NCBI RefSeq assembly: GCF_004151485.1
Contig: NZ_SBFF01000013.1
Span: forward strand, 62,402-126,401
Length of the DNA: 64,000 bases
Reading direction: 5' to 3'
Origin: Sphingosinicella sp. CPCC 101087
GTDB taxonomy: Bacteria; Pseudomonadota; Alphaproteobacteria; Sphingomonadales; Sphingomonadaceae
Under the pieces are notes generated by a model. That model did no database searches. It had not been told where the DNA came from and worked only from the letters and a program-made list of their open reading frames with translations. The translations under genes were made by a program, and so were the position numbers. Below, piece after piece: positions 941 through 60,918 of this stretch (position 1 is its first letter; every line of letters begins with the position of its first letter).

Positions 941-1216
941 ACCGGAGGCGGCGATGTAGGCGCGAGCGCGCTCCATGGCAAGCTGGCTGGGGCCTCGGCG
1001 GTTCCCCTTCGGCCCATGAGTCCCGCCGGCGGCGCAGGCGCGGACAACGTCGCGTAGCGCCGGGCCAGCCGAAGTGCAGCGCTCCGGCGACCAGGATCAT
1101 TTCGAGACGCTCCTCCCTCGGCTCGCCTTGCCTTGGCAACGGTCCATACCCATGATAGTCGCCACGCGCTCCGCGGCCGAGGCTTTTTTGCGCCGCCGCC
1201 CAATCCAGAGGGATGA

Positions 1217-1558
1217 ATGTTCGAGACTCCAGCCTTTGCCGCGACCTCCGGGGCCGCCTCCGCCGGCGGGGGGACTGCGGCCTTCATGGTGCAGATCTTC
1301 CCGCTCGTCCTGATCTTCATCATCTTCTATTTCCTGCTGATCCGCCCGCAGCAGCGGCGGATGAAGCAGCACCAGGCGATGGTCGCGGCGGTGAAGCCGC
1401 GCGACGTTGTCGTCACCAATGGCGGCCTGATCGGCAAGGTCACCAAGGTCGAGGAGCAGGAGATCGAGGTGGAGGTGGCGCAGGGCGTCCGGATCCGCGT
1501 CGTCAAATCGATGCTGAGCGACATACGGCCGCACGGCTCCAAGCCGGCCAACGACTGA
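1217..1558 (+). CDS. yajC: Preprotein translocase accessory subunit YajC
   Basis: A 113-residue inner-membrane protein that associates with SecDF at the SecYEG translocon. A single membrane helix spans about residues 25-42 and is followed directly by the family motif 'RPQQRRMKQHQ' (43-53), then a small cytosolic beta domain. The start is the ATG at 1217, preceded by 'AGAGGG'; an ATG four bases earlier is in another frame. It is the first gene of a tight block with secD (16 bases downstream) and secF, the usual alphaproteobacterial arrangement. Confidence 0.95.
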   Translation: MFETPAFAATSGAASAGGGTAAFMVQIFPLVLIFIIFYFLLIRPQQRRMKQHQAMVAAVKPRDVVVTNGGLIGKVTKVEEQEIEVEVAQGVRIRVVKSMLSDIRPHGSKPAND

Positions 1559-1574
1559 ACGGTCGGCCGCACAG

Positions 1575-3161
1575 ATGCTCGATTTCCCCCGCTGGAAGGT
1601 GTGGCTGGTCACGCTGACGCTCGTAGTCGGCGTCTATTATGCCATTCCCAGCTTCCTTCCCGAACGCGTCGCCCAGCAGATGCCGTCCTTCCTCGCGCCG
1701 CAGGTCAATCTCGGCCTCGACCTGGCCGGCGGAAGCCACCTGCTGCTCGAAGCCGATACGAGCGGCGTAGCCCGCCAGCGGCTCGAGAATATGGAGGACG
1801 TGCTGCGCCGCGAGCTGCGCAGCGGCGGCATCCAATTTGCCGACATGTCGACCAACGAAGGCCGGTTGAGCTTCCAGCTCCGGCAGCCCGGCCAGGCCGA
1901 CGAAGCGGTGCGGATCGCGCGAACCGCAACCCAGCCCGCCGCCTTCGGCGCCACGACCGAATGGACGGTGAGCGCGGAAGGCAACCGGGTCACGCTGGCG
2001 CCTACCGACGCGGGCCTGGACACGGCGGTCAACGACGCGATGGAAACGGCCCGCGACGTCATCGACCGGCGCATCAACGCGCTCGGCACGCTCGAGCCCA
2101 CCATCATTCGCCAGGGCAGCAACCGTATCGTCGTCCAGGTTCCCGGCCTCGAGGATCCGGAAGCGCTGAAGCAGCTGATCGGGCGTACGGCGCGCCTGGA
2201 ATTCAAGCTGGTCGACCTCACCGCGACGCCGGAACAGCTGCAGTCGGGACGCGGGCCGATCGGCAGCCAAGTCCTGCCCTATCCCGAGGGCGGCGAGGGC
2301 ATGCGCATCGCCGTCCAGCGGCGCGCGATCATCACCGGCGACCAGATCGCCGACGCGCGGCAGGGCTTCGACCAGCAGGACGGCCGACCGGTCGTCAACA
2401 TCACCTTCGACGGGACCGGCAGCCGGCGCTTCGCCCGGGTGACCCAGGAGAATGTCGGGCGGCCGTTCGCCATTATCCTCGACAATGTCGTCATCTCGGC
2501 GCCGAACATCAACGAGCCGATCATAGGCGGCCAGGCGCAGATTTCGGGCAACTTCACGGTCGAGAGCGCCAACGCCCTCGCCATCTCGCTGCGCTCCGGG
2601 CGGCTCCCGGTCGACCTGACCGTGGTCGAGGAGCGCACCGTGGGTCCCGATCTCGGCGCCGATTCGATCCGCAGCGGCGCGATCGCCATGGCGATCGGAA
2701 GCGTCCTCGTGCTCATCTTCATGTTCATGACCTATGGCCGGTTCGGCCTCTATGCCGACACCGCCATCCTGCTCAACGTGGCGCTGATCCTCGGGATCAT
2801 GGCGATCATGAACGCGACGCTCACCTTGCCGGGCATTGCCGGCTTCGTGCTCACCGTCGGCGCCGCGGTCGACGCCAACGTGATCATCAACGAGCGGATC
2901 CGCGAGGAGCAGAGACGCGGCCGCAACGTGATCCAGGCGATCGAGCATGGCTACAAGGAAGCCCAGTCGGCGATCTTCGACGCCAACATCACCAACGTCA
3001 TCGCCGGGATCCTGCTCTTCTATTTCGGGTCGGGTCCCGTGCGCGGCTTCGCCATCGTCATGATGATCGGCATCGTCACCTCGGTGTTCACCGCCGTCAC
3101 CGTCACGCGCATGTTCGTCTCCCTGTGGCTGCGCAAGCGGCCCAAGGAACTCGTGATTTGA
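1575..3161 (+). CDS. secD: Protein translocase subunit SecD
   Basis: A 528-residue inner-membrane protein that, with SecF, uses the proton gradient to pull exported proteins through the Sec channel. It has an N-terminal membrane helix (about 10-26), the SecD motif 'GLDLAGGSHLLLEAD' (47-61), a periplasmic region, and a C-terminal block of membrane helices from about residue 360. A conserved 'DANVIINERIREE' segment lies before the last helices. Length is normal for short alphaproteobacterial SecD. It lies between yajC and secF, with 10 bases to secF. Confidence 0.96.
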   Translation: MLDFPRWKVWLVTLTLVVGVYYAIPSFLPERVAQQMPSFLAPQVNLGLDLAGGSHLLLEADTSGVARQRLENMEDVLRRELRSGGIQFADMSTNEGRLSFQLRQPGQADEAVRIARTATQPAAFGATTEWTVSAEGNRVTLAPTDAGLDTAVNDAMETARDVIDRRINALGTLEPTIIRQGSNRIVVQVPGLEDPEALKQLIGRTARLEFKLVDLTATPEQLQSGRGPIGSQVLPYPEGGEGMRIAVQRRAIITGDQIADARQGFDQQDGRPVVNITFDGTGSRRFARVTQENVGRPFAIILDNVVISAPNINEPIIGGQAQISGNFTVESANALAISLRSGRLPVDLTVVEERTVGPDLGADSIRSGAIAMAIGSVLVLIFMFMTYGRFGLYADTAILLNVALILGIMAIMNATLTLPGIAGFVLTVGAAVDANVIINERIREEQRRGRNVIQAIEHGYKEAQSAIFDANITNVIAGILLFYFGSGPVRGFAIVMMIGIVTSVFTAVTVTRMFVSLWLRKRPKELVI

Positions 3162-3171
3162 GGAGCGCCCG

Positions 3172-4146
3172 ATGCGGCTGCTGAAGCTGGTCCCAGACAA
3201 CACCAATATCGACTTCCTGCGCTGGCGGGGCGTCGCCTTCACCATTTCGGCACTGCTCATCGCCGCCTCTATCGCGCTGATCGCGGTCAAGGGGCTCAAT
3301 TTCGGCGTCGATTTCGCCGGCGGACAGATGATCCGCGTGACGTTCCAGCAGCCGCCCCAGCTCGACGACCTTCGCGAGCGGATCGGCGGGCTCGGCCACG
3401 GCGAGGCATCGGTCCAGGAGTTCGGCAGCCCGACGGAGATCGCCATCCGCATGCCGCTGCCCGAGGGCGGGGCGGAAGGCGCCAACCAGGCCGCCAGCGA
3501 CGTGCGCGGCGCCCTCACGCAGGCCTATCCCGGCGTGCGGATCGACGCGGTCGAGACGGTGTCGGGCCAGGTTTCCGAGGAGCTGGTCGAGGCGGGGGCG
3601 CTCGCTTTGCTGCTCTCGATGATCGGAGTCTCGATCTACATCTGGATCAGGTTCGAATGGCAGTTCGGCGTCGGCGCCCTCTTCTCCCTGTTCCACGACG
3701 TCACGATCACCCTGGGCTTCTTCGCCCTGACGCAGATGGAGTTCGACCTCAACGTCGTCGCCGCCCTGCTGACGCTGATCGGCTATTCGCTGAACGACAC
3801 GATCGTCATCTACGACCGGATCCGCGAGAATCTGCGCAAGTTCCGCAAGATGGAGATGGGGGCGCTGATCAACCTCTCCGTCAACGAGACGCTGTCGCGC
3901 ACCATCGCCACCAACCTGTCGATGCTGCTGGCGCTCGGCGCGCTCTTCTTCCTCGGGCCCGACGTCATTTTCAGCTTCACCGCAGCCCTGCTGATCAGCG
4001 TCGTGATCGGCACCTATTCGACCGCCTATATCGCCGCGCCCTGGCTGATCTGGCTCAAGGTCACGTCGGACAGCTTCCTGCCGAGGGACCCTGTCAGCCG
4101 CTCCGAGCGCACCCCGCGGGAAGGCCATGACGGCGCCCGGGTCTAG
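3172..4146 (+). CDS. secF: Protein translocase subunit SecF
   Basis: A 324-residue partner of SecD. The first membrane helix spans about 20-38, followed by the signature 'FGVDFAGGQMIRV' (44-56), a short periplasmic domain, and five C-terminal helices containing 'GYSLNDTIVIYDRIREN', a hallmark of SecF. The start ATG at 3172 follows 'GAGGAGCGCCCG', a good ribosome binding site. The stop is 9 bases before the GTG of the Mth938-like gene, so the block is probably co-transcribed. Confidence 0.96.
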   Translation: MRLLKLVPDNTNIDFLRWRGVAFTISALLIAASIALIAVKGLNFGVDFAGGQMIRVTFQQPPQLDDLRERIGGLGHGEASVQEFGSPTEIAIRMPLPEGGAEGANQAASDVRGALTQAYPGVRIDAVETVSGQVSEELVEAGALALLLSMIGVSIYIWIRFEWQFGVGALFSLFHDVTITLGFFALTQMEFDLNVVAALLTLIGYSLNDTIVIYDRIRENLRKFRKMEMGALINLSVNETLSRTIATNLSMLLALGALFFLGPDVIFSFTAALLISVVIGTYSTAYIAAPWLIWLKVTSDSFLPRDPVSRSERTPREGHDGARV

Positions 4147-22673: not shown

Positions 22674-23222
22674 TCAGCCGGCGACGGTCATGTCGACCTT
22701 CTCGACCCACTCCGGATAGAAGACGGGCTCGCGGTTCGACCAGCCCGGGGCGGTGGCCGCCGCTTCGCTGATCGACTGCAGCAGGGTGCGGCGGCGCTCC
22801 GGATGTAGATGCGGAAGCGCGGCGGCGGCGCAGAAGGCCGCGGGGAGCCACGGCCGGATATTCGCGCCGACCAGCCGCTCGTAGAGAAACCGGTAGGAAG
22901 CGAAGCAGGTCAACCGCTCCTGGCCGAGGTCGAAGGCGGTCATGGTGATGAGCGGCGCCATCAGCGGCTCCATCGCGTCGAGGCCGCTATCGTCGGGTAC
23001 ATAAGTGCGGATATGGTCGAGGCGGCGATAGACGCGCTCCTGCGCGCGGATGCTCGCGGCTTCGGCCGGGTCGCGTGACCAGCGCTTCACCGCATCGCGG
23101 CGATCGAGCCCGATGTCGAGCGACCGGCGGATGTAGCGTTGCGTCCCCTTCGCGAAGCCCGCAAATTCCTTCATCTCAGCCAGTGCCACCGCTCCATCAG
23201 CGGGCCGAGTCCTCGTACTCAT
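22674..23222 (-). CDS. Hypothetical protein
   Basis: About 182 residues with start ATG at 23222, chosen because it is preceded by 'AAGGAGTGTGGGATT', a strong ribosome binding site. A longer in-frame start upstream has none. The protein is soluble and helix-rich: 'RRSLDIGLDRRDAVKRWSRD' near the N-terminus and 'FYPEWVEKVDMTVAG' at the end. There is no signal peptide or known catalytic motif. The neighbour on the start side is a divergent sensor kinase 540 bases away. Confidence 0.65.
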   Translation of the reverse strand: MSTRTRPADGAVALAEMKEFAGFAKGTQRYIRRSLDIGLDRRDAVKRWSRDPAEAASIRAQERVYRRLDHIRTYVPDDSGLDAMEPLMAPLITMTAFDLGQERLTCFASYRFLYERLVGANIRPWLPAAFCAAAALPHLHPERRRTLLQSISEAAATAPGWSNREPVFYPEWVEKVDMTVAG

Positions 23223-46948: not shown

Positions 46949-50073
<3,125 letters not shown>

Positions 50074-50077
<4 letters not shown>

Positions 50078-50409
50078 ACCGGGCGCGGCGGCTCCTGTTC
50101 GTGTGCTCGCAGAACCGATTGCGCGGCCCGACGGCCGAGGCCCTCTGTTAGGGCATCGACGGCGGCATCGAGGCCCATCTCCACAGGCACCAACAAAGAC
50201 GCCGAGCAGCCGCTCACCGTCGATCTCATCGAGTAGGTCGATGTCGTCATGGGCGGGAGCATCGTAACCGCATTATCCGGAAGTTTCGTGGCCAGCTGAA
50301 AGGAAAGCAGGTCCTCGTGGTCGGCATCCCCAACGATTATGAGTATATGCAGCCTGAGCTGATCAGCTTGCTGGGGGTACGGCTCCAGCGGTGGATAGGC
50401 GCTCAGTGA
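50074..50409 (+). pseudogene. Broken low-molecular-weight protein tyrosine phosphatase-like gene
   Basis: It begins GTG at 50074 overlapping the uvrA stop. The first codons read 'RRLLFVCSQNRLRGPTAEAL', the characteristic start of the short phosphatase-like family (C-x-x-N-R-L-R-x-P-T-A-E). An in-frame TAG at 50149-50151 and later frame changes interrupt it. Downstream pieces still readable are 'GTNKDAEQPLTVDLIE' (then a stop) and 'RKFRGQLKGKQVLVVGIPND', ending 'RLQRWIGAQ' with TGA at 50407-50409. It is a decayed gene, and the adjacent bases mark the left edge of the AT-rich island. Confidence 0.8.
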
Positions 50410-50611
50410 GCTAGCAAGAAGTGCAGTGTCGCCGTAACTCTGGCCAACGAACCAGCCGGAAAACAGGGTACTCAATGAACCTATCGCTCCCGACCTCGGC
50501 CGCGTATCGTTTGCCTTGTCCGCTCCATTCGCAGCGAATATGCAACATGGTTAGCGCGAAGCGCGTCGGAACCAAGTGTGGGCGGCACTCGCAACCCGAG
50601 GTCTAATGTGA

Positions 50612-51784
50612 ATGGATAATACCACCGGTGAACGCATCTTCGGAGAAGACGATCAGCAAGGTCTTGAGCAGGAGACCTTGTTTCCTGAACTTAACCAAAT
50701 TCCTGATAAGATCGACCATCCGTTCGATCCTAATCAAATAAAGATTAGCAGAAGAGTTGTTACTATTGGTCAGATTGCCAGCCGAATAGAGCACGGCGAA
50801 GTCGAGCTCGCACCGGATTTTCAACGCCGCGCGCGAATATGGGACATATCAAGGAAAAGCAAGCTTATTGAATCAATACTTCTCCGTATCCCGCTGCCAG
50901 TGTTCTATGTAGCAGCTGACGATAGAGAGAACTGGAGAGTTGTAGACGGCCTTCAGAGATTGACAACAATATACGATTTTATCCATACAGAAAGCGTTCA
51001 TTCGTTTTCACTAAGAGGGTTAGAGTATTTGAGTGCCTTGGAAGGCACAACATTCACGCAGCTCCCGCGCTCCATAAAACGTCGTATCGACGAGACTGAG
51101 CTTAACATTAACGTCATCGAGAGTGGAACACCAGATGAAGTGATGTTTAATGTATTCAAGCGGATAAACACTGGCGGGATAACGCTTAACGGACAGGAAA
51201 TTAGGCATGCGCTTAATCCTGGTCCAGCTCGTGGATTCTTGTTGTCTTTAGTTGAATCCGAGGAATTCAGGAGAGCGACAGACGACTCTGTCCGCGATGA
51301 TCGAATGGGCGCCCGGGAGCTTGCCCTTAGGTTTTGTGCCTTTTCGATGACCTCTCCAGAGAGCTACTATGGCGGTGACCTAGACGGTTTTCTTAATGAT
51401 GCCATGAAACGTCTAAATGACATGTCAAACTCAGAGCGACAGGCGCTTCGGAATAGATTCCGTCTGGCGATGACGCGCGCCGAAGAAGTTTTTGGTAACG
51501 ACGCGTTTCGAAAGCGTTATACGATGACTGCGCCTAGGACGCCAATTAATCGGGCGTTGTTCGAAGCATGGTCGGTGCGATTGGCTGAGTTAAGCGAAGG
51601 GGATTTTTGGAACCTCCGTTCCAAATCCTCTATGTTGCGTGACGAGTTTTCAATGGCTCTGATGGATAATTACGAATTTGAGCGCTCTGTGTCGGTTGCT
51701 ACGGGTAGTCGAGCAAGAGTGCTTCTCCGATTTAATACGGTTCAGAAGCTAATCAAGGAAGTGCTCGATGCTCAATTCGATTAG
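50612..51784 (+). CDS. DUF262 domain protein (ParB/Srx-like fold), island gene 1
   Basis: A 390-residue protein with clear DUF262 motifs: 'IASRIEHGEVELAPDFQRR' (55-73) and 'WRVVDGLQRLTTIYDFI' (108-124), plus 'FNVFKRINTGGITLNGQEIR', the third conserved block. DUF262 is found in GmrSD-type and other restriction or phage-defence proteins, where it binds or cleaves DNA or hydrolyses nucleotides. No DUF1524 HNH domain follows. Base composition is far from the genome: 50701-50760 has only 23 G/C of 60. Its last 17 bases overlap the ATPase gene. The start has 'GAGGT' about nine bases upstream. Confidence 0.9.
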   Translation: MDNTTGERIFGEDDQQGLEQETLFPELNQIPDKIDHPFDPNQIKISRRVVTIGQIASRIEHGEVELAPDFQRRARIWDISRKSKLIESILLRIPLPVFYVAADDRENWRVVDGLQRLTTIYDFIHTESVHSFSLRGLEYLSALEGTTFTQLPRSIKRRIDETELNINVIESGTPDEVMFNVFKRINTGGITLNGQEIRHALNPGPARGFLLSLVESEEFRRATDDSVRDDRMGARELALRFCAFSMTSPESYYGGDLDGFLNDAMKRLNDMSNSERQALRNRFRLAMTRAEEVFGNDAFRKRYTMTAPRTPINRALFEAWSVRLAELSEGDFWNLRSKSSMLRDEFSMALMDNYEFERSVSVATGSRARVLLRFNTVQKLIKEVLDAQFD

Positions 51785-52871
51785 GCTCAGAAACTTCAAG
51801 AGTTTTGACGACGTGGTCGTTCCAATGAAGCCGCTCACTGTGATTTTGGGACCTAACGGTGCCGGGAAGTCAAGCATGATACAGGCACTAGCCCTACTTC
51901 GCCAGAGCTTGGGTCAGCACCGCGCGAAGCAGGCAGTGCTAAACGGAAGCTTGGTGAGCTTGGGTACTGGGCATGACGTGTTACGACAAGGAGCAGATGA
52001 AGATGTCATCGAGCTCACCCTCACGGGGTCCGAGGACAGGAGCGGCGTGTTCAGGATGGGGTACAATCCTGAGGCAGACGTACTTCCTCTCGGAACTCCT
52101 TTCGCCATTCTCCCGGAGCTAATATCAGATAACTTCGTCTACCTCGCTGCGGAGCGAGTGGGTCCGAGGTTAGTTGGTCCTCGATCGCTTCAGAGTGCAG
52201 AGCGTAGAGAGATGGGGCCGCGAGGTGAAGGTGCCCTTGCAGTGCTCGAAAGATTTCGAGCGGAAATCCTTCCTAAGAACGACCCGAGGCGCGGGGGACA
52301 AGGCGGTTCACTTGAGGAACTGTTCCAAATGTATCTTGGACAAATTTGTCCGACTGCTCGCATCGAGCTTCACCCCTACGGTGAAGTGGATAGCATAGGA
52401 TCTAGCTTTGTTTTTACGCCCCCAGGTGGCCTTCCTAGCTTACCTGTGCGGCCTACCAACGTTGGCTTTGGCCTAAGCTACGCATTGCCTATCATTGTGG
52501 CGGCCTTGGTGGCACAACCGGGAGGAACGCTGATTGTTGAGAACCCTGAAGCTCACCTTCATACGGTCAGTCAACGAGCAATGACCGAACTTCTTTATCG
52601 GACCGCCGCTGCCGGTGCCCAAGTGATTGTAGAGACCCATAGTCGAGAAACTTTTCACTGGCTGAGAAATAGTTCGATGAGTAGGAGTATTGATGGTTCG
52701 ATCGTATGCATCAACTACTTTCAGGCCGTATACGACGAGAGTGGACGCGTTTCGAGATGCTCTACATTGAATTCCTCTGACGACAGTCTACAAGACTGGC
52801 CGCAAAGCTTCTTTGATGAGTACGGCTCTCCGGGAGACTTAATTGCACCGGTCGTGCCCGTTCCTTTATAA
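51768..52871 (+). CDS. RecF/AAA-type ATPase with DUF3696-like end, island gene 2
   Basis: A 367-residue ABC-type ATPase. 'SIRLRNFKSFDDVVVPMKPL' and Walker A 'GPNGAGKSS' (28-36) open the protein. A combined signature/Walker B region is 'GGTLIVENPEAHLHTVSQRA' near 246-265, and the H-loop 'VIVETHSRE' follows. The C-terminus 'DDSLQDWPQSFFDEYG' resembles DUF3696. Such ATPases of the SMC/OLD type pair with nuclease or DUF262 partners in defence modules. It is translationally coupled to the DUF262 gene and shares its AT-rich composition. Confidence 0.9.
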   Translation: MLNSIRLRNFKSFDDVVVPMKPLTVILGPNGAGKSSMIQALALLRQSLGQHRAKQAVLNGSLVSLGTGHDVLRQGADEDVIELTLTGSEDRSGVFRMGYNPEADVLPLGTPFAILPELISDNFVYLAAERVGPRLVGPRSLQSAERREMGPRGEGALAVLERFRAEILPKNDPRRGGQGGSLEELFQMYLGQICPTARIELHPYGEVDSIGSSFVFTPPGGLPSLPVRPTNVGFGLSYALPIIVAALVAQPGGTLIVENPEAHLHTVSQRAMTELLYRTAAAGAQVIVETHSRETFHWLRNSSMSRSIDGSIVCINYFQAVYDESGRVSRCSTLNSSDDSLQDWPQSFFDEYGSPGDLIAPVVPVPL

Positions 52872-52872
52872 T

Positions 52873-52957
52873 TGGCCGATCCTCAGCAGGTTGCCCCCAC
52901 GGTCGGGAACCAGCCGCCGAGCTCGCCCGTGCCCTTGTTCGGAATTACGGTGACGGT
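52873..52957 (-). pseudogene. Remnant of a VOC/glyoxalase gene 3' end
   Basis: On the minus strand this reads roughly 'NKGTGELGGWF', then with a one-base frameshift 'GGNLLRIGQ', matching the end 'KGRGEYGAWFRDCDGNLLGV' of the intact VOC gene at 54859-55254. The nucleotide match is clear, including 'CGCCCGTGCCCTTG', while one base is missing near 52911. It lies directly behind the island ATPase stop and marks the right edge of the AT-rich segment. Confidence 0.72.
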
Positions 52958-53009
52958 GCATTATTTCGATCGACACGCGAAGTACCCACAACCAAGGGGA
53001 TTATGCATT

Positions 53010-54858: not shown

Positions 54859-55254
54859 CTAGAAGGGCTGCCCGACCCCAAGCAAATTGCCGTCGCAGTC
54901 CCGGAACCAGGCGCCATATTCGCCCCTGCCCTTGCTCGGATAATTGCCGTCGACCGTGGCGATGCCGTCCTCGGTGCGGAGGGGCTCGTCATACTCCTCG
55001 AACACCACGCCGCGCCGCCGCAGCTCGGCGACGGTCGCCCGCAGGTCGGCTACCTCAAACCCCATTTGCGTGAACGTGCCGTCGGACTGGCCAGCCGACG
55101 CGAACAAGGCGAACTCGCCATCGCCGACCACATATCGAAGCCCGCCGGGCCGCGCCTCGGCCGGGTGCAGGTCCAGCTTCTCGGCATACCAGGCGCGGGC
55201 CCGGTCCAGATCCTTCGCCGGCAGCCGCGTCGCCACCTTTCGCAAGCCCAGCAT
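54859..55254 (-). CDS. VOC/glyoxalase family protein
   Basis: A 131-residue protein built of two beta-alpha-beta-beta-beta modules: 'VATRLPAKDLDRARAWYAEK' opens the first, 'QMGFEVADLRATVAELRRRG' the second, and 'GEYGAWFRDCDGNLLGVGQP' is the closing Gly/Trp/Phe/Asp-Pro-like strand with a metal-side Asp and Asn. VOC proteins are metal-dependent isomerases, dioxygenases or antibiotic-binding proteins; the function here is unknown. Its 3' end recurs as broken copies at 52873-52957 and 58825-58908. Confidence 0.88.
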   Translation of the reverse strand: MLGLRKVATRLPAKDLDRARAWYAEKLDLHPAEARPGGLRYVVGDGEFALFASAGQSDGTFTQMGFEVADLRATVAELRRRGVVFEEYDEPLRTEDGIATVDGNYPSKGRGEYGAWFRDCDGNLLGVGQPF

Positions 55255-59046: not shown

Positions 59047-60918
59047 ATGCTCAACCTGACCGACATCATTGTCCGCCTCGGCGGGCGGACGATCCTCGAC
59101 GGCGCTTCCGCCAGCCTGCCGCCGCGCGGGCGGATCGGGCTGATCGGGCGAAACGGGGCGGGAAAGACGACCCTGGTGCGGGTCGTCGCCGGAATGCTCG
59201 AACCCGATGCCGGCGAGCTGCGCATGCCGCGGGGGAGCCGCATCGGCTACATCGCCCAGGAGGCGCCGGGCGGAAGCGCCACGCCGTTCGAGACGGTGCT
59301 TGCCGCCGATACCGAGCGCGCGACCCTGCTCGCCGAGAGCGAGCATAGCGAGGACCCGGACCGGCTGGGCGAGCTGCACGAACGGCTGAACGCGATCGAC
59401 GCCCATTCGGCGCCGGCGCGGGCGGCGCGGATCCTGGTCGGGCTCGGCTTCGACGAGGAAGCGCAGCACCGGCCGCTCGACACTTTCTCGGGCGGCTGGC
59501 GGATGCGGGTGGCGCTCGCTTCCTTGCTCTTCTCGGCGCCGGACCTGCTGCTGCTCGACGAGCCTTCGAACCACCTCGACCTGGAGGCTGTGCTGTGGCT
59601 CGAGGATTTCCTCAAATCCTATCCCGCCACCATCCTGCTGGTCAGCCACGAGCGCGACTTCCTCAACAATGTCGTCGATCACATCCTCCATCTCGAGCGC
59701 GGCAAGCTGACCCTCTATCCGGGCGGCTACGACGCGTTCGAGCGGCAGCGCGCCGAGCGGCAGGCGCAGCTCGCCTCCGCCCGGGAGCGGCAGGAGGCGC
59801 AGCGCGCGAAGCTGCAGGACTATATCGCCCGCAACAAGGCGCGCGCCTCGACCGCCAAGCAGGCCCAGTCGCGGGTCAAGGCGCTGGCGCGGATGCAGCC
59901 GATCGCCGAGCTGCTCGACGATCCGTCGCTGAGCTTCGATTTTCCGAGCCCGGAGGCGCTTCGGCCGCCGCTGGTGACGCTCGACCATACGGCCGTCGGC
60001 TATGACGGCGTTCCGGTCCTCCGGAAGCTCGACCTCCGGCTCGATCCGGACGACCGCGTCGCCCTGCTCGGCCGCAACGGCAACGGCAAGACGACGCTGG
60101 CGCGGCTGCTCGCCGCACAGCTGAAGCCGATCGAGGGCGAGATGAACGCCAGCGGCAAGATGCGCGTCGGCTATTTCACCCAGTATCAGGTCGAGGAGCT
60201 GGACCGGGGCGAGACGCCGCTCCAGCACATGACCCGGCTGATGCCGGGGGCGAGCCCGTCGGCGGTGCGCGCGCAGCTCGGCCGGTTCGGATTCGGCGGC
60301 GCGAAGGCGACGACGGAGGTCGGCAAGCTTTCGGGCGGCGAGCGGGCGCGGCTGGCGCTCGCCTTGATCACCCGCGACGCGCCGCACATGCTGATCCTCG
60401 ACGAGCCGACCAACCATCTGGACGTCGATGCGCGCGAGGCCCTGATCCAGGCGCTCAACGCCTATGAAGGCGCGGTGGTGATCGTCAGCCACGACCGGCA
60501 CATGATCGAGACGACCGCGGACCGGCTGGTGCTGGTCGACGGCGGCACGGCCCGCGAATATGACGGATCGCTCGACGACTATATCGCCTTCGTGCTTCAG
60601 GGCGACGCGCGCGAGGCCGGCAAGGCCGAGGCGAAGATCGACCGCAAGGCGGCGCGGCGCGCGGCGGCCGAGGCGCGGGAGAAGAGCGCGGCGCTGAGGC
60701 GGCGCGCCAAGGAGGCGGAAGCGGAGCTGGCGCGGCTGACCGAGCAGAAGAGCGCGATCGACCGGGCAATGTTCGACCCTTCCTCGGCGGAGGCGGCGCT
60801 GGCGAAGCTGACCATGAGCGAGCTGATGAAGAAGCGCGCGCAGGTCGAGGCCAGGATCGAAGAGATCGAGGCGGAGTGGCTGGACGCGAACGAGGCGCTG
60901 GAGCGGATCGCGGCCTGA
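59047..60918 (+). CDS. ABC-F family ATPase (Uup/YheS-like)
   Basis: A 623-residue soluble protein with two ATPase domains and no membrane helices. The first Walker A 'GRNGAGKTT' is at 34-42 and the second 'GRNGNGKTT' near 341-349. Signatures are 'FSGGWRMRVALASLL' and 'LSGGERARLALALI', Walker B 'LLLLDEPSNHLDLEA' and 'MLILDEPTNHLDVDA'. The linker is charged, and a C-terminal coiled coil extends about 90 residues ('RKAARRAAAEAREKSAALRR'). ABC-F proteins act on ribosomes or in DNA metabolism. The start at 59047 gives the standard N-terminus 'MLNLTDIIVRLGGRTILDGA'. Confidence 0.94.
   Translation: MLNLTDIIVRLGGRTILDGASASLPPRGRIGLIGRNGAGKTTLVRVVAGMLEPDAGELRMPRGSRIGYIAQEAPGGSATPFETVLAADTERATLLAESEHSEDPDRLGELHERLNAIDAHSAPARAARILVGLGFDEEAQHRPLDTFSGGWRMRVALASLLFSAPDLLLLDEPSNHLDLEAVLWLEDFLKSYPATILLVSHERDFLNNVVDHILHLERGKLTLYPGGYDAFERQRAERQAQLASARERQEAQRAKLQDYIARNKARASTAKQAQSRVKALARMQPIAELLDDPSLSFDFPSPEALRPPLVTLDHTAVGYDGVPVLRKLDLRLDPDDRVALLGRNGNGKTTLARLLAAQLKPIEGEMNASGKMRVGYFTQYQVEELDRGETPLQHMTRLMPGASPSAVRAQLGRFGFGGAKATTEVGKLSGGERARLALALITRDAPHMLILDEPTNHLDVDAREALIQALNAYEGAVVIVSHDRHMIETTADRLVLVDGGTAREYDGSLDDYIAFVLQGDAREAGKAEAKIDRKAARRAAAEAREKSAALRRRAKEAEAELARLTEQKSAIDRAMFDPSSAEAALAKLTMSELMKKRAQVEARIEEIEAEWLDANEALERIAA

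Follow-up and report, generated by a model that had tools for sequence, protein, structure and literature searches.

Several described defense systems pair an ATPase with a second protein: in Septu, PtuA is partnered by an HNH protein (PtuB), and in PARIS, AriA is partnered by AriB. Closest to the locus described here is Menshen, whose genes we take to be NsnA, NsnB, and NsnC (NsnABC). In the literature searched, the Nsn gene names and Menshen were not found together in any paper, and the link is supported by the fit of the Nsn genes with the Menshen description in passages of a review (PMC10952713). Those passages state that DUF262 domains hydrolyze NTPs in GmrSD-like enzymes, that mutation or deletion of the DUF262 gene abolishes Menshen resistance, and that one Menshen component is tied to an OLD-type TOPRIM domain. 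As for genomic setting, core genes flank varied defense systems in hotspots of Pseudomonas aeruginosa (the core defense hotspots cDHS1 and cDHS2; PMC10250203) and of Escherichia coli (PMC10121019).

The window, by which we mean the whole 64-kb stretch of DNA analyzed, contains two intact plus-strand open reading frames (ORFs), nsnA and nsnB, that overlap by 17 bases (Table 1). Their GC contents were 0.474 and 0.531 (47 and 53%), compared with 69% around them (window, 0.685; left flank, 0.690; right flank, 0.696). The island is the most AT-rich place in the window: when GC was measured in 1.5-kb segments at steps of 250 bases, the 14 lowest segments all started between 49250 and 52500, and the 15th (GC, 0.637) started at 23000. 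A preliminary description had proposed an AT-rich island of two genes overlapping by 17 bases, and the ORF coordinates and base composition agree with it; its count of 23 G/C in the line from 50701 to 50760 was also reproduced. Its starting point of 50410 was wrong, the first gene beginning at 50612.

Broken genes form both edges of the island, and here too the preliminary description, which had named a phosphatase on the left and a VOC gene on the right, was borne out. The nearest intact neighbor on the left is uvrA, which that description did not name. The phosphatase remnant carries an in-frame stop and matches, at 55.6% over 108 amino acids (aa), the copy behind uvrA in a relative (G003), which in turn matches Pfam LMWPc. 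The right-hand remnant, which begins at the second base past the nsnB stop codon, resembles VOC gene ends: over 72 bases (52873 to 52943) it agrees at 74% with the intact VOC copy of the window itself, and over its full extent it agrees at 77% with the VOC gene end of relative G005. Thus, the window has two VOC copies, one broken and one intact 1.9 kb further on, and we rejected the reading that the VOC neighbor is simply intact, since the second copy is broken. The intact gene has matches of 84% and 74% at loci L095 and L110, and in G005 and G009 its relatives are located ∼4 to 6 kb downstream of uvrA. As the preliminary description had also stated, no integrase or transposase was recognized among the eight neighborhood proteins by Pfam. 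The sole tRNA of the window is at 864 to 940, and promoter and terminator scans gave no more than in shuffles. The window's UvrA has 1,042 aa, exceeding the 943 aa of the NCBIfam model by ∼100, and, by eye, contains an Ala/Ser/Glu-rich stretch around residues 240 to 310.

Table 1. Features of the window and of the uvrA 3' site in relatives (PADLOC rows, matches above 80 bits).
Feature	Locus or genome	Position	Strand	Evidence
uvrA, intact, left anchor of hotspot	Window	46949..50077	+	NCBIfam UvrA equivalog, 1580 bits
Low-molecular-weight phosphatase gene remnant, internal stop	Window	50086..50403	+	Similarity to G003 copy
nsnA, DUF262 / GmrSD_N (ParB-like NTPase), 390 aa	Window	50612..51784	+	PADLOC, Pfam
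nsnB, SMC/OLD-type ABC ATPase head, 367 aa	Window	51768..52871	+	PADLOC, Pfam, model
VOC (glyoxalase-fold) gene 3' end remnant, at the place where nsnC would begin	Window	52873..52958	-	Similarity
Intact VOC gene	Window	54859..55254	-	Pfam Glyoxalase
Second copy of uvrA end	L095	16878-17108		
Second copy of uvrA end	L096	13125-13268		
Second copy of uvrA end	L105	11703-11924		
Second copy of uvrA end	L097	10079-10273		
AbiL	G005			PADLOC
NsnB/PDC-M55A-like	G010			PADLOC
PDC-M03	G018			PADLOC
dGTPase	G004			PADLOC
Beta protein with ImmA-like neighbor	G001			PADLOC
Kinase of mad6/PD-T4-6 kind	G020			PADLOC
PDC-S06	G008			PADLOC
PDC-S60	G009			PADLOC
AbiU	G013			PADLOC

The first protein matched PADLOC NsnA at 463 bits over residues 14 to 385 of 390 (next-best family, 125 bits), and the second matched PADLOC NsnB at 276 bits over residues 1 to 352 of 367, its ATPase also matching the AriA model at 87 bits. 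In Pfam, NsnA matched GmrSD_N (DUF262) at 78 bits, with a sub-threshold MetJ match as its only other hit, and it carries the motif VDGLQRL; NsnB matched AAA_15/AAA_21. Neither protein had a Pfam match to DUF1524 or HNH. TOPRIM was absent from the window's NsnB in the Pfam scan, and its 367 aa are modeled as an ATPase head only; one relative's NsnB and 10 third-gene proteins likewise had no TOPRIM match in Pfam. For the predicted NsnB model (pLDDT, 82), the best PDB matches were PtuA of Septu and retrons and SMC heads, with TM-scores of ∼0.5. BrxU was the sole PDB match of the predicted NsnA model (pLDDT, 84) with an E value below 0.001 (1.5e-4), and because the TM-score was only 0.27, kinship of NsnA with BrxU is supported just for the ParB-like core. 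As read from the sequence, NsnB retains GPNGAGKSS, NVGFGLSY, LIVENPEAHLH, and ETHS, which we take to be ATPase core motifs.

The pair shares with Menshen the NsnA and NsnB matches, the gene order, and the overlap but differs in having no NsnC and in an NsnB whose second half has changes at conserved sites. An SMC-like ATPase head is common to the window, PtuA of Septu and retrons (by structure), and AriA of PARIS (by the PADLOC model), but the partner in the window is a DUF262 protein. With GmrSD, BrxU, and SspE the pair has in common a DUF262 domain with the DGxQR motif, though not the DUF1524 nuclease domain, and unlike in Gabija and OLD nucleases, no TOPRIM follows the ATPase.

We examined 15 plasmid regions, 1 phage region, 20 genome stretches (the 19 best matches after the window itself, plus G031), 2 extra stretches, and, from 202 viral-contig loci, the best 80. 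NsnA and NsnB were adjacent in all 15 plasmid regions, the phage, 5/20 genome stretches, both extra stretches, and 28/80 viral loci. Four of these loci are cut off by the end of the record and were left out: L021 among the plasmid regions and L146, L147, and L177 among the viral loci. In each of the 47 loci that have both genes and extend far enough behind them (14 plasmid regions, 1 phage, 7 genome stretches, and 25 viral contigs, several of them near-identical), a third ORF of 240 to 336 aa follows directly, starting within ∼170 bases of the NsnB stop, and all nine third-gene proteins scanned match NsnC models. The window has no same-strand ORF of at least 100 aa within 690 bases behind nsnB. 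A search of the window with 30 NsnC proteins gave no convincing match (best E value, 0.018, at 60387 to 60491), and neither did querying the whole genome with a single NsnC, that of Methylobacterium (best E value, 0.106). Across 29 matched loci, the median pairwise identity was 15.5% for NsnC and 32% for both NsnA and NsnB; such hypervariability would fit a specificity part. An initial scan of the genome contigs with NsnA yielded no relative. NsnB as a family had matches in all 14 control genomes, and thus only strong NsnB matches were used.

Since all 47 relatives carry the third gene, the pair is an incomplete known system rather than a new one. Overall, the preliminary interpretation is partly supported. 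Strong PADLOC matches and the genomic site favor the link to phage defense that it drew; it had recognized a DUF262 protein without HNH and an ATPase of the OLD/SMC type, both correctly. Of the two options it offered, part of a known system was right (NsnA plus NsnB of a three-gene system), and a minimal system of its own kind is not supported, as 0/47 relatives are without the third gene. The DUF3696-like end it had noted is weak: the WPxxFFD motif is kept, but Pfam DUF3696 misses the window protein and matches the Methylobacterium relative. It counts against the pair being a fixed unit that NsnA-like DUF262 proteins commonly stand without NsnB, as in 15/20 genome stretches. Close relatives with single homologues in housekeeping contexts and of normal base composition at this same locus were not found.

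At 29 conserved columns (37 sequences), the window's NsnA showed no deviations. Its NsnB deviated at 5 of 33 conserved columns, the second highest count of 37 sequences; all five deviations lie from residue 189 on, and motifs that are almost invariant in other sequences are affected (ETHSDH to ETHSRE and HLHP to HLHT). It is important to note that the NsnB of L161, with the third gene present, deviates at 6/35 columns, above the window's count, so NsnB divergence alone is no proof of decay.

Judging from the sequence, the island is probably a Menshen (NsnABC) cassette with NsnA and NsnB and without NsnC, situated at a recurrent cassette site behind uvrA. In the full system, NsnB, an SMC/Rad50-like ATPase head, would dimerize on ATP and sense or grip phage DNA; the variable NsnC may set or trigger specificity or act as a partner effector; and NsnA, a DUF262 NTPase of ParB-like fold, would then be switched on and carry out or gate the attack. 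With the NsnC step missing, the pair would most likely be inactive or altered as phage defense, both frames still being open and NsnB drifting. Several points count against this explanation: the open frames, the relative-like overlap, and the fully conserved NsnA are ill-suited to a long-dead remnant; the hypervariability of NsnC means that an unrecognized partner may exist elsewhere in the genome; and the TOPRIM domain that the review ties to a Menshen component had no Pfam match in the proteins scanned.

The main rival is a working two-gene derivative of Menshen, in which the changed NsnB lets NsnAB sense phage without NsnC. It would account for the open frames, the retained overlap, the unchanged NsnA columns, and the ATPase core motifs kept in NsnB, but a third gene is missing in none of the 47 relatives and NsnB is altered in motifs that are otherwise nearly fixed; we regard such a derivative as rather unlikely. 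Less probable still, to the point of being doubtful, is a partner supplied in trans by a protein, unrecognized or unrelated, that is encoded at another place in the genome. Homology searches can miss a partner at the median identity found for NsnC, but the whole-genome search with one NsnC gave nothing convincing, and the third gene is adjacent in all 47 relatives. The DUF262 domain and the BrxU structural match might suggest a type IV restriction enzyme of the GmrSD/BrxU kind divided over two proteins; this reading is highly improbable and was rejected, because DUF1524/HNH is missing from both proteins, the partner is an ABC ATPase, and the NsnA score far exceeds that of the next family.

The incomplete Menshen cassette is one occupant of the site behind uvrA, and that site is the larger result of our analysis. 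A match to the uvrA end was found in 23 of the 26 genomes of the genus, own genome included, and we examined the 3' side of uvrA in 19 relatives, leaving out G012, G021, and G024 (partial or paralogous matches) and G017, G022, and G023 (no match). In 16/19 relatives, a 1.5-kb stretch of less than 56% GC begins no more than 2 kb from the end of uvrA; on two cut contigs among them, only 848 and ∼1,490 bases were measurable. No AT-rich stretch was present behind uvrA in G014, G015, and G002. Farther than 3.5 kb from uvrA, none of the 17 relatives with enough sequence had a stretch below 56% GC.

Different relatives carry different cassettes behind the same core gene. When 27 cargo proteins from 15 islands were compared all against all (E value, 0.001), the only matches concerned an ImmA-like protein, present in both G001 and G007, and an ATPase stretch of 31 residues. 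PADLOC matches above 80 bits were found in 9 of the 15 islands scanned, out of 16 (Table 1); some of the matched models are broad (ATPases, kinases, dGTPase), and in several islands the scan covered the main protein only. Compared with nearby sequence, the cassettes were enriched in defense genes, as judged by a small control in which 10 ORFs of the same loci, located 2.2 to 8.1 kb behind uvrA and not in the AT-rich stretches, gave one PADLOC match (a subtilase, 88 bits). A Fisher test for PADLOC matches, with the unscanned island counted as a miss among 16, gave a P value of 0.037; because the relatives are not independent, such P values are only indicative. Six of the 15 islands were without a useful PADLOC match: G003, G011 (DUF4238), G007, G019, G025 (NB-ARC/TPR), and G006 (17 bits, cold-shock model).

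Some of the cargo proteins have features of their own. In G006 and G025, STAND-like proteins (L107:10179-12026 and L105:9131-11659, respectively), mutually dissimilar at an E value of 0.001, both end in a cold-shock-like part (33.6 and 24.7 bits, respectively, to Pfam CSD; cut-off, 27) and are possibly nucleic-acid-sensing defense proteins. In G016, a long protein behind uvrA (L108, minus strand, ∼950-3600) appears by eye to begin like SIR2 and to include a P-loop NTPase part.

Beyond the genus, we defined a dip as 700 bases whose GC content is lower than that of uvrA by 8 points or more. At the family level, a dip was found in 16 of the 28 uvrA loci that were long enough, two being those of the own genome and G008; at recA, used as a control with loci from the genus rather than the family and a few of them short, there was a dip at 0/52 sides. 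Among named genomes (the best 80 of 586 uvrA relatives, 73 of them with 1.5 kb behind uvrA), 25/35 Sphingomonadales had a dip versus 5/38 other Alphaproteobacteria, and farther out the counts were 3/32 and 7/34; membership follows the organism named on the record, with bare "Alphaproteobacteria" or "Proteobacteria" records counted as others. When one ORF from each of 20 named genomes was scanned, 9 matched PADLOC at an E value of 0.001 or better and 5 exceeded 40 bits, a signal clearly weaker than in the genus. Four of the 20 genome stretches (G269, G298, G062, and G221) have an NsnA-like gene without NsnB at a distance of 1.4 to 2.9 kb from the end of uvrA, and in G302 an NsnA-like gene lies ∼0.5 kb from it by coordinates. 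Further, G010 and Sphingopyxis sp. GW247-27LB have in common a two-gene system behind uvrA (L096:11163-13015 and L293:9543-11494), with 64% identity in the NsnB/PDC-M55A-like ATPase and 46% in the small partner.

Like the P. aeruginosa and E. coli hotspots, this site combines a core gene with a varied defense set, but the anchor is uvrA, the bacterial order is another, the cassettes comprise ∼1 to 3 genes, and no integrase was recognized in the cassettes scanned. In the literature searched, mostly outside subscription journals, no title or abstract start reported a defense hotspot at uvrA.

With regard to how the cassettes move, Pfam recognized no integrase in the window neighborhood or in the part of the cargo proteins that was scanned. 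In 4/19 relatives, the terminal part of uvrA recurs behind the gene as an incomplete, diverged second copy (48 to 78 codons, 50 to 76% identity; Table 1), within 90 bases of uvrA in three of them and ∼1.1 kb away in L097. These copies look as though cassette exchange had replaced the 3' end of uvrA. Together with the broken genes at both edges of the window's island, they suggest that cassettes move by recombination through the flanks rather than by site-specific integration.

On balance, we lean toward the view that the 3' side of uvrA is a Sphingomonadales-wide, integrase-free site at which cassettes of 1 to 3 genes are swapped by recombination through uvrA and neighboring genes, that the cassettes unmatched in PADLOC (for instance, those of G006 and G025) are largely undescribed putative defense systems, and that the Menshen pair without NsnC is one edited cassette. 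With a constant location next to a housekeeping gene, small, diverse defense cassettes could be surveyed across the whole order, and the unmatched ones among them would be a place to look for new systems. The pair itself offers a natural test of the role of NsnC in Menshen.
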